This document shows positions 7,201-14,750 of a stretch of 33,792 nucleotides of DNA, piece by piece. The notes beneath the pieces were generated by a model, which was not told the DNA's origin, ran no database searches, and saw nothing but the letters and a program-made list of their open reading frames with translations. The stretch is taken from assembly GCA_937872685.1 (NCBI GenBank), contig CALMTS010000069.1, positions 1-33,792 on the forward strand, written 5' to 3'. Numbering within the stretch: the stretch's first letter is position 1; each line of letters opens with the position of its first letter. A program made the translations under genes and the position numbers. Origin of the DNA: an uncultured Desulfomicrobium sp. Its GTDB lineage: Bacteria; Desulfobacterota; Desulfovibrionia; Desulfovibrionales; Desulfomicrobiaceae.

Positions 7201-8178
7201 ATGTATGTCGCGGCCCTGAGGGAAAAGGGAAGGGCGCGCTTCGAGCTGCGCCGGACCGTGCCGCTGGACGGGGGGCTCGGCTTCGAGGTCCTGGCGGACC
7301 TGGGCGCGGACCCCGGGCGGGTTGCGCATTTCGGACGCTTCGGCATGAACTACGACGGGGAACTCCTTGCCGCCCTGGCGCATCTGGACCTGGACGCGGA
7401 CGCCCTGGACGAGGCCTTCGCCCCTTTCGCGCCCCACGGCTACAGGCCGCCGGCGGACCGGGGCAAGCCGTGGCGGCGGACGGTGCTGACCTCGGTCCAG
7501 GAGGACGAAATCCGGGCCCTGCATCCCTTCGACCGCAGGCGCATGGCCTACCTGCGCTCGGGCGAGGTCAACCTGAGCCGCATCGACGAGGTCAACCCCA
7601 GGATGTTCCGCTCCCTCACGGGAAAATGCCGGGACGAGACGGAACAGCTTTTCCTGCGCATGGAGCGCGAGTTGCCGAAGGGCGAGGCCAGGACCTACGT
7701 GCATGCCATCCTGAACCTCCAGCGCCATTTCGCCAACCTCACGGCCCGGACCATGCCCGAGGCCCTGGACCCGGAGCGGCTCGACGAGGCCTTCATGCAC
7801 GAGTTCTGTTCCATCCTCGCCGACCCCGCCTTCGGTTTCGGCCTGCCTTCCGGTGCGCAGCACTATCTGCGGCGCTACGCCTTCATGCATTTCGATTACG
7901 ATTTTCCTGAATCGGACGGGTTCCGGCGCATCTACGAGGATTTCATGAACGATTTCCGGCGCCCGCAGCCCCGGCCCCGGCCCGTTCAGCCCGAGCGGGT
8001 GAAGGAGCTCTTCGGGGTGTCCATGCAGGAGATCAGGAGGATGTCGCGCCGGGAGTTCGCGCGGGTGTTCCGCAAGAAGGCCATGGCCATGCACCCGGAC
8101 AAGGGCGGGGATCACGAGGCCTTCGTGGAGTTGCTGGAGACGTACAAGCGGGTAGTGACGACAAAGCCGGAAGCATGA
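7201..8178 (+). CDS. J-domain protein with unknown N-terminal region
   Basis: A 325-residue protein whose last 60 residues form a J-domain. It starts around VKELFGVSMQEI, has the amphipathic helix RREFARVFRKKAMAM, and carries the HPD tripeptide at H298-P299-D300 followed by KGGDHEAFVELLETY. J-domains stimulate the ATPase of DnaK-type Hsp70 chaperones. The remaining ~260 residues show no zinc fingers, no Gly/Phe linker and no domain I recognise. They are soluble, charged and mostly helical (for example LPKGEARTYVHAILNLQRHFANLT). The J-domain at the C-terminus instead of the N-terminus is the reverse of DnaJ/CbpA and suggests a dedicated client-specific cochaperone. It begins one base after pyrC. 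A proline-rich linker (RRPQPRPRPVQPERV) separates the two parts. Confidence 0.85.
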   Translation: MYVAALREKGRARFELRRTVPLDGGLGFEVLADLGADPGRVAHFGRFGMNYDGELLAALAHLDLDADALDEAFAPFAPHGYRPPADRGKPWRRTVLTSVQEDEIRALHPFDRRRMAYLRSGEVNLSRIDEVNPRMFRSLTGKCRDETEQLFLRMERELPKGEARTYVHAILNLQRHFANLTARTMPEALDPERLDEAFMHEFCSILADPAFGFGLPSGAQHYLRRYAFMHFDYDFPESDGFRRIYEDFMNDFRRPQPRPRPVQPERVKELFGVSMQEIRRMSRREFARVFRKKAMAMHPDKGGDHEAFVELLETYKRVVTTKPEA

Positions 8179-8181
8179 GGG

Positions 8182-8290
8182 CAGATGGGCCAGATGGCCA
8201 GATGGACGAAATGGACGTTATGGACCTTATGGACAGGGTCGTGCCTGGTCCATAACGTCCATAACGTCCATGAGGTCCATTTCGTCCATC
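8182..8290. repeat. Inverted and tandem ATGGAC 9-mer repeats forming a long hairpin
   Basis: The gap between two convergent genes is built from degenerate 9-base units. Three CAGATGG copies (8182, 8191, 8199) lead into ATGGACGAA, ATGGACGTT and ATGGACCTT on the left, mirrored on the right by GTCCATAAC (twice), GTCCATGAG and GTCCATTTC. The outer 16 bases (8201-8216, GATGGACGAAATGGAC) pair perfectly with 8275-8290. The inner units pair imperfectly, and the right arm has one unit more than the left. No T-tract follows on either strand, so this is not a classical intrinsic terminator, but it could stop or stabilise both convergent transcripts. Confidence 0.8.
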
Positions 8291-8303
8291 AAAACCTCAG
8301 CCT

Positions 8304-9203
8304 TTAAGCCGTGGCGTCCTCGCCGTTCAGCATGGCCAGGACCATGGTCTTTTCCGTGTCCATGCGGCCGCGGACGCTGGCCTGCACGCTGGCCGTGGAG
8401 GAGCCGAACTGCGTCTTGCGGTTGTCGTAAACCTTGTCGATGAGCTTCTCGGCGAACCGGTTTTCGGGCAGGTTCTTGTCCAGGGATTTCATGGCGCGGC
8501 TGAAGATGCGGCTCGCCCCGGCCGGCCCGTGCTGGACCGCCGTGCTCCACAGCGCCTCGCGGGCGGCCGCGGGCAGGGTGTCCATGTCCACGCCGGTGCG
8601 CGCCAGGATTTTGTCCCGGGCGGGTTCGTAGTGGCTGGCGGCGATGAATTCGCGCTGGAGCCGGCCGAACTTTTCGGGGTCCTGGTCGGCGATTTTGCGC
8701 CAGACGTCGGGCATGCGCCCCTTGGTCGAGCCCGTGTTGGCCGGTCCCGCCTTCTTGAGGGCGGCGGCCCATTCGGGCTCCCTGTCCTTCATGAAGGAGA
8801 TGAACTCCTTCATGGTGCCGGGCCTGGAGGCGATCTGGTAGGTGCCGTAGGAGGTCCCGCCGTTGCGGTCGTAGCCGATGGCGCCGACCCCTTCGGTGCC
8901 GGACTCGAAGGCGGCGGAGAGGTCGCCCACAGCGGCGGTGGAGCCGGTTTGCGCGGCGTGGTCGGCCCTGGCGGTGGCGGAAGGTTGACGCATGAGAGCG
9001 GCCAGGCCGTTCAGGGCGCTCTGCATGAGGGAGTTGTCCATGGCCGACCCGCCCAGCCGGGCTCCGAGTTCGCGCGCGCTGCCGCCGTCCATGGCCTGAC
9101 GCATGTGGGTCTGGAACCCTTCACCGGCGGCTGCGGAGCGGCTCCGGCGTTCAGGGGTTGTCCCGAGAATGTTCATCAGTTGGATGGGGTCGATAAGGCT
9201 CAT
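8304..9203 (-). CDS. Putative muralytic/lysozyme-like protein, function unassigned
   Basis: A 299-residue protein on the minus strand. I prefer the ATG at 9203 (MSLIDPIQLM) because GGAG stands seven bases upstream; an in-frame ATG at 9227 lacks a site. The first ~105 residues are low-complexity, Ala/Ser/Arg-rich and without a signal peptide. The C-terminal ~180 residues form a compact domain with FESGTEGVGAIGYD, GGTSYGTYQIASRPGTM, FGRLQREFIAASHYEPARDKIL and ALWSTAVQHGPAGASRIF. An early Glu followed by GTSYGTYQI and later STAVQHG recalls glycan-cleaving folds of the lysozyme type found in phage and secretion-system proteins. I cannot name the family, and the catalytic assignment is inference. 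It is convergent with the J-domain gene and transcribed alone. Confidence 0.7.
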   Translation of the reverse strand: MSLIDPIQLMNILGTTPERRSRSAAAGEGFQTHMRQAMDGGSARELGARLGGSAMDNSLMQSALNGLAALMRQPSATARADHAAQTGSTAAVGDLSAAFESGTEGVGAIGYDRNGGTSYGTYQIASRPGTMKEFISFMKDREPEWAAALKKAGPANTGSTKGRMPDVWRKIADQDPEKFGRLQREFIAASHYEPARDKILARTGVDMDTLPAAAREALWSTAVQHGPAGASRIFSRAMKSLDKNLPENRFAEKLIDKVYDNRKTQFGSSTASVQASVRGRMDTEKTMVLAMLNGEDATA

Positions 9204-9532
9204 GCTTCGTCTCCGCGTCAAAATCATGTCATGAAAAGGGGGCTTTGAGCCCTCGAAGCAGATTTCGGGCCATCCCGCGGAAAACGTCGTTCGAGGGCGC
9301 GATTTTCTAGTGGACGGCCGGACTTATGTTCATTAGATACGCCTCAACTTTTGCCGCGGAAGCGTGGCATTATTTTCCCAACTTTCTTTATCATCCTGTA
9401 CATATTGACATTTTTTCGATGTGGCGATGGCCAGGGCTCGTGCCCGAAGCCGGCGGTCAGACGTGTCCGGGCACGTGACCGCGCGATGTGCGCTAGCCTG
9501 TCTCCCGCGGCCAGCCTTCGTGGGGTTTGGGT
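9204..9532. other. Divergent intergenic region (about 330 bases)
   Basis: The gap separates two divergently transcribed genes and must contain both promoters. It has a perfect 9-bp inverted repeat, GCCCTCGAA (9249-9257) and TTCGAGGGC (9290-9298), about 45 bases upstream of the minus-strand gene, and an AT-rich stretch (about 9340-9420) with a TTGACA hexamer at 9405-9410. I find no well-spaced -10 partner, so no promoter is called. Confidence 0.5.
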
Positions 9533-14682: not shown

Positions 14683-14720
14683 GGGCTGCGCGGGGTTTGA
14701 CTTTCAGGCGTTCAAAGCCC

Positions 14721-14750
14721 AAAAAAAAAGCCGCTGAATGCGGCTTTTTT
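14721..14750. terminator. Bidirectional intrinsic terminator
   Basis: GCCGC (14730-14734) pairs with GCGGC (14740-14744), flanked by nine A on the left and six T on the right. It therefore works in both directions, ending potDABC on the plus strand and the zinc-ribbon gene on the minus strand, whose stop is about 20 bases away. Confidence 0.85.

Follow-up and report, generated by a model that had tools for sequence, protein, structure and literature searches.

Between two convergent genes of an uncultured Desulfomicrobium sp. lies a hairpin that belongs to a dispersed family of GGAC repeats, found across phyla and linked to the gene for a four-helix-bundle protein with a C-terminal suffix (FHBS). 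Copies of the repeat occur in frame within that gene, unit number turns over between orthologous sites, and in one genome the hairpin is part of a dispersed element. On balance, we lean towards reading the hairpin as a non-autonomous copy of this family, with FHBS as its cognate protein, which most likely binds the arrays. Together, GGAC arrays and FHBS suggest a repeat-and-protein partnership that has not been described. The window referred to below is the whole stretch of DNA that was analyzed (33,792 nt of contig CALMTS010000069.1).

A Palindromic Array between Convergent Genes

The hairpin fills a 125-nt gap and consists of two facing arms of a 9-nt unit, ATGGAC followed by three free nucleotides (Table 1). 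The left-arm spacers are GAA, GTT and CTT, and those of the right arm, read on the minus strand from the outside inward, are GAA, CTC, GTT and GTT. Complementarity is perfect over the outer 16 bp (8201-8216 against 8275-8290) and is 91% between 8201-8234 and 8257-8290. Folded as RNA, positions 8160-8310 give -78.2 kcal/mol (z = -8.8), a value equalled in none of 200 shuffles, and the minimum-energy structure adopts a shifted register rather than plain outer-to-outer pairing. Allowing up to one mismatch, the unit pair ATGGACNNNATGGAC has seven matches in the window, all of them in the hairpin (0.18 expected; 0 of 100 shuffles reached seven). Coordinates, complementarity and folding thus bear out the sequence-only reading, which had described a hairpin of ATGGAC 9-mers between convergent genes with a perfect 16-bp base. 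The same reading had seen Met-Asp-X repeats in the units when translated; the units are noncoding here, and the coding copies of other genomes are in another frame, giving Gly-X-X and then Ser-X-X, so that peptide-coding Met-Asp-X repeats were ruled out. Genes were called with a custom codon-bias script and no published gene finder. The product of the left-hand gene has the sequence HPDKGG in its C-terminal part, which we take to resemble a J-domain motif.

Table 1. Features of the hairpin locus and of a compared site in the window.
Feature	Positions	Strand	Evidence
Left-hand convergent gene, without a Pfam match, whose orthologues identify this site in relatives	7201..8178	+	
Outer degenerate units ATGGGC (8185) and ATGGCC (8194), before the left arm	8185..8199	+	sequence, repeat search
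Entire palindromic array, outer 16 bp perfect	8201..8290	.	folding, repeat search
Left arm, four exact ATGGAC units at 8202, 8211, 8220, 8229	8202..8234	+	
Loop, 13 nt; edges AGG..CCT able to lengthen the stem	8235..8247	.	
Right arm, five exact GTCCAT units at 8248, 8257, 8266, 8275, 8284	8248..8289	-	
Right-hand convergent gene, PF21277 (T6SS VgrG3-like, C-terminal)	8304..9227 (or to 9203)	-	
Empty site: array between stop codon and T-tract terminator in three relatives, none in the window's genome	14683..14737	.	

The Array Family in Desulfomicrobium

A pattern of three consecutive units has 17 matches in the 506-contig genome from which the window comes, and its reversed control has none. 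It is present in seven of the 16 genomes of the genus (controls, 0), the richest being G014 (50 matches), G003 (44) and G007 (25). Pairs of the variant CACGGAC were found in eight of the 16, again with no matches to controls, and include dispersed places in G002 and G013. The arrays read in seven Desulfomicrobium genomes number 63 (31 two-armed and 32 one-armed), a count that is inflated by orthologues, as are those of arms, spacers and gene contexts given below. All 31 two-armed arrays have the order ATGGAC then GTCCAT, and none the opposite. Among 97 arms, two units are found in 7, three in 13, four in 37, five in 38 and more in 2, and arms of four or five units make up 75 of the 97 (22 of 28 in G003 alone).

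The composition of the spacers is far from random, their first letter being G in 186 of 309 cases and A in 13. When the two arms are paired in the outer register, spacers are equal in 7 of 81 comparisons against 5.9 in shuffled arrays (p = 0.37), and spacer complementarity was rejected as evidence that the stem is under selection; in the best register the figure is 24 of 53 against 15.3 (p = 0.0015).

Arrays lie between genes in 55 of the 59 cases with a clear context (seven genomes). Convergent ends hold 5 of 18 arrays in G003 against a baseline of 19 of 104 (p = 0.35), and a general enrichment at such ends was accordingly dropped. Convergent placement is more frequent for two-armed arrays (15 of 28) than for one-armed ones (4 of 27; p = 0.004, with orthologues counted separately), and another four of the 28 two-armed arrays are flanked by divergent gene pairs. 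A stop codon is found within 32 nt of 18 of the 19 arrays at convergent sites.

Comparison of Orthologous Sites

The window array occupies the same place in G003, G014 and G007, with three to seven units in its left arm. In G011 the convergent pair is kept and the array is absent, while six other genomes have a different right-hand neighbor at this site and no array. At the empty site in Table 1, the relatives with an array are again G003, G014 and G007, and an ordinary T-tract terminator is present in all four genomes. Arrays are otherwise common to the loci compared, for example 21 of 21 between G003 and G014 (both directions counted), although the fetched loci were picked for holding arrays and empty sites are under-sampled. 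They are retained at the same sites between species with about 83% flank identity, and as most compared sites are common to several species, turnover of arrays appears to be slow. Within orthologous arrays of equal length, spacers disagree at 77 of 237 letters (a count over both directions, restricted to exact cores), compared with about 6% divergence in the flanks, and part of these differences amounts to a shift of whole units.

The repeats had been thought to look like a family of small mobile or expanding elements, and this agrees with the 17 matches against none in the control and with the changes in unit number between orthologous sites. Copying is not directly visible in Desulfomicrobium, since none of 59 arrays (five genomes) shares flanks with another array of its genome.

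Spread across Phyla and a Dispersed Element

A search pattern for hairpins with two units in each arm matched at least 117 stretches of public genome contigs from about a dozen phyla, as counted by eye from record titles. Among the stretches listed are at least 33 from Lentisphaerae, 22 from Chlamydiae, 14 each from Chlorobi and Hydrogenedentota, eight from Sumerlaeota/BRC1, six from Cloacimonadota (at least seven with Stygibacter) and four from Planctomycetes, together with several proteobacterial and desulfobacterial groups, Verrucomicrobiota, Kapaibacterium and Flavobacteriales. The core is the same in loci whose G+C content ranges from 37 to 72%. The ATGGAC of the window is replaced elsewhere by GTGGAC, TCGGAC or, at 10-nt spacing, CACGGAC. 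The CsrA site motif is ANGGA, which ATGGA and ACGGA fit and GTGGAC units break, and a role as a CsrA sponge seems unlikely on account of the latter. Outside Desulfomicrobium, arms of more than five units occur, and other groups have modes of two to five units, some with long tails. A very long arm is seen in a Chlorobiaceae locus (L130, 1635-1979), and the longest in the Chlorobi set has 34 units. Dense GTCGGAC/GTCAGAC arrays at 9-nt spacing lie in and after the FHBS gene of another locus (L295, G106:C1:20001-40000), a genome that has ATGGAC arrays elsewhere.

The mobility proposed for the repeats is supported by one Lentisphaerae genome (JAAZKQ, L132-L245), in which a dispersed element bounded by inverted GTAACCGGTCAC ends contains the hairpin. 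Among 27 aligned hairpin copies, the left end GTAACCGGTCACCCATTGAT is present in 18 and its inverse on the right in 16, within the span read. Both ends occur in 11 copies, 192-449 bp apart, and the element is mostly about 190-270 bp long. Agreement between copies over 40-nt stretches is 26% just outside the left end and 74% just inside it. The element ends in GTAA. In this genome, the hairpin is carried by an element that is mobile or was so in the past.

Carriage by phages or plasmids was rejected: the hairpin pattern occurred once in viral contigs and was not found in plasmid records, and FHBS was not found in viral contigs or phage records and gave a single partial match, from Prevotella, in plasmid records.

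The Partner Gene FHBS

When the genes near 110 of the at least 117 stretches were compared, members of a single gene family turned up at 11 loci, in different phyla, and the array was either within the gene or next to it. The encoded protein is a four-helix bundle extended by a C-terminal suffix, corresponding in NCBIfam to TIGR02436 plus TIGR04258 (four helix bundle suffix). The four FHBS proteins that were scored all match TIGR02436 (27.9-33.0 bits, cut-off 24), and PF05635 (23S_rRNA_IVP) scores just under its Pfam cut-off. No transposase domain was seen among the NCBIfam and Pfam domain matches of FHBS. TIGR04258 occurs in nine of the 16 Desulfomicrobium genomes, and the window's own assembly, a MAG, has no FHBS match.

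The position of the repeat relative to the gene varies. One FHBS gene of G003 ends in GEMD-stop, with an ATGGAC array continuing from that stop codon, and in G012 an array likewise follows the FHBS stop codon. Four genomes (G002, G013, G014 and G003) have an FHBS copy with an in-frame CACGGAC hairpin between its two domains, and in G011 this linker carries a GTGGAC hairpin. At 14 further loci from other Desulfobacterota, most FHBS linkers have GGAC units to one side and GTCC units opposite, which read Gly-X-X and then Ser-X-X, and several of these loci have an additional array upstream. The FHBS gene of L285 looks broken. Beyond the array behind the FHBS gene of G003 there is another hairpin, which was not counted as evidence.

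Sixteen FHBS proteins from several phyla share 57-82% identity with the FHBS of a Geobacter MAG. This level of identity across phyla, together with a patchy distribution (TIGR04258 in 51 of 395 sampled Desulfobacterota), points to horizontal transfer of the gene.

Co-occurrence of Arrays and FHBS

Outside Desulfomicrobium, TIGR04258 was detected in 39 of 46 hairpin genomes and in none of 14 control genomes, compared with 51 of the 395 Desulfobacterota; excluding the 11 hairpin genomes with a fetched array in or beside an FHBS gene gives 28 of 35. The seven of the 46 without it are those of L137, L148, L157, L165, L167, L186 and L220. Among the 395 Desulfobacterota, at least six TGGAC three-unit matches (9-nt spacing) were found in 12 of 51 genomes with TIGR04258 and in 1 of 344 without (p = 7e-11), the exception being the genome of the window itself. 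At four or more matches the figures are 13 of 51 and 3 of 344, and at one or more they are 26 of 51 and 39 of 344, a threshold with much coding background at which the reversed control occurs, by eye, at a similar rate. Six is the clean threshold, as the highest control total seen was five (G197). The remaining 25 of the 51 TIGR04258 genomes have no three-unit TGGAC match, though other cores exist. Fisher tests used per-genome counts transcribed by hand from tables, and the samples of 395 and 46 genomes are not matched for phyla.

The linker sequence gives a prediction for the rest of the genome. G002 and G013, whose FHBS linkers contain CACGGAC, have further CACGGAC arrays at other places, as predicted, while for the GTGGAC of G011 the prediction hardly held (four matches, all but one in its own FHBS gene). 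Protein binding had been offered as one possible role of the hairpin; the co-occurrence and cis-linkage with FHBS favor it indirectly and supply a candidate for the binding protein.

Predicted Fold of FHBS

An AlphaFold2 model made from an alignment of FHBS (pLDDT 80.9) has three long and two short helices. Residues 137-164, which correspond to the linker coded by the array, are disordered in the model and are followed by the suffix helix (168-201) and the last helix. The closest folds in the PDB are the S23 proteins 2GSC and 2RLD (ranks 1-5, probability 0.95-1.00, E 0.03 to 0.33), and a profile search of PDB sequences with FHBS returned no match. FHBS is thus predicted to take the S23/Avd four-helix-bundle fold. 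The Xanthomonas S23p is reported to be a homopentamer of four-helix bundles, and the same report describes S23-type proteins as having no known function (PMC4990558). For Coxiella it describes an S23p encoded within an rRNA insert, tandem GACAGAT heptamers lying upstream of the ORF (PMC4990558), and PF05635 proteins are said to resemble the Avd of retroelements (PMC10053308). FHBS would share with S23p and Avd the fold and the TIGR02436 match, the GAC-containing heptamers upstream of the Coxiella gene being a further likeness, and differs in its extra linker, in the suffix domain TIGR04258 and in its location among protein genes rather than in rRNA. The near-stop of Desulfomicrobium arms at five units would suit a pentamer, a reading that we hold loosely because other groups have modes of two to five units and long tails.

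Proposed Mechanism and Alternatives

Units line up in short tandem runs, many of them opposite an inverted run, and the FHBS gene has such runs too, within its reading frame ahead of the suffix helix, at the stop codon or a short way upstream. In the favored reading, FHBS most likely binds these arrays, either as DNA or in hairpin form. It would plausibly do so as a ring of five subunits, each taking one unit, and may thereby maintain the arrays and now and then spread them, much as RAYT is thought to do for REPs. The most specific form of this proposal is a transposase-free, cross-phylum system, in which each subunit of an S23/Avd-type pentameric ring reads one unit, and the protein maintains or spreads the hairpins along the chromosome and has its own recognition site as an in-frame loop of variable length; we put this forward tentatively, as something that may well prove wrong.

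The arrays might instead be hitchhikers without function, born in the FHBS linker, where a 9-nt unit keeps the frame, enlarged by slippage and hairpin-templated repair, and leaking to other places by recombination, with no recognition by FHBS. Such an origin would account for the variable unit number and differing spacers of orthologous arrays, for spacers that are unconstrained when the arms are paired in the outer register and for the long unit-number tails of some phyla. It sits poorly with a core that stays the same from 37 to 72% G+C, with Desulfomicrobium arms that nearly stop at five units, with the single arm order of two-armed arrays, with the retention of sites between species at about 83% flank identity, and with the rarity of many matches in genomes without TIGR04258, and we consider it unlikely. 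A role at the RNA level, in which FHBS would bind GGAC repeats or the hairpin in transcripts and control its own mRNA and those ending in arrays, has a parallel in TRAP, which wraps NAG repeats. The RNA hairpin is very stable and arrays at convergent sites are close to stop codons, and the likeness of PF05635 to Avd (PMC10053308) and the heptamers of the Coxiella rRNA insert (PMC4990558) fit as well. However, one-armed arrays are either sense or antisense to co-directional genes (about six and three site groups, by eye) and two-armed arrays also occur between divergent genes, so we judge regulation of this kind to be quite improbable.

Termination of both convergent transcripts without T-tracts, one of the functions first suggested for the hairpin, is the least credible of the alternatives, and we give it very little weight. 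A strong palindrome in a 125-nt convergent gap, and the frequency of convergent placement among two-armed arrays, are what would be expected of a bidirectional terminator. Against this, a terminator scan detected none formed by the hairpin, G011 has the same convergent pair and no array, and one-armed arrays are unable to form a hairpin. An intrinsic terminator was rejected, as the hairpin is not followed by a T-tract and at the compared site (14683-14737) the array precedes a separate T-tract terminator. This separate terminator, and the existence of arrays between divergent genes, speak against ending convergent transcripts as the function of the family.

Relationship to Known Repeat Systems

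The closest parallel to the arrays with FHBS as cognate protein is the REP/REPIN and RAYT partnership, which likewise has short chromosomal palindromes that are mostly intergenic, a gene that carries the repeat, and hardly any presence on viruses or plasmids. As with REPs, the arrays include imperfect palindromes (31 of 63 are two-armed) and are dispersed between genes (55 of 59). Unlike REPs, their arms are tandem GGAC cores with free nucleotides, the repeats also occur in the reading frame of the partner, and that partner, an S23-type four-helix bundle, shows no transposase domain. The cognate gene of REPs encodes a Y1 tyrosine transposase and is flanked by the repeats, whereas the repeat-carrying gene here is TIGR02436 plus TIGR04258 and gave no transposase hit. 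REP repeats have a GTAG- or CGTC-type tag at one end (PMC3733652), and no such tag was seen by eye in the Desulfomicrobium arrays. For want of the transposase and the tag, the arrays are not assigned to REP/RAYT, and we file them among dispersed palindromic repeats with a cognate gene, outside that system. Rickettsia palindromic elements are palindromes found both in frame in proteins and between genes, and we know of no partner gene for them; unlike the arrays described here, they are not known to be tandem.

Multicopy sequences of Geobacter metallireducens include four heptanucleotide GGACCGG repeats and paired three-repeat TCTCCGT sites, which the authors regard as regulatory elements or as binding sites of regulators (PMC2700814). 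They resemble the arrays in having tandem short units (one with GGAC), inter- and intragenic locations and some opposite-strand pairs, and differ in having 7- or 8-nt units and in coming from one species, and the available text of that paper makes no link to FHBS. No link of the arrays to FHBS was found in the literature searched, where the phrase 'four helix bundle suffix' was likewise absent. Since the array accompanies one branch of S23 proteins across phyla, it is a candidate ligand for that branch, and a single binding assay could test it. If the partnership is real, it would be a transposase-free counterpart to that of REP and RAYT, and would provide a case in which the repeat that codes for a protein's loop also occurs elsewhere in the genome.

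Genomic Neighborhood of FHBS

The FHBS loci examined sit among protein genes, outside 23S rRNA genes. By Pfam, four of 12 such loci (L276, L277, L278 and L279) have FHBS within a type I restriction operon, where its neighbors are specificity or restriction subunits, and in L276 a RhuM-type gene adjoins it. Some of the FHBS genes in these four loci reach a few bases into the beginning of the following gene.
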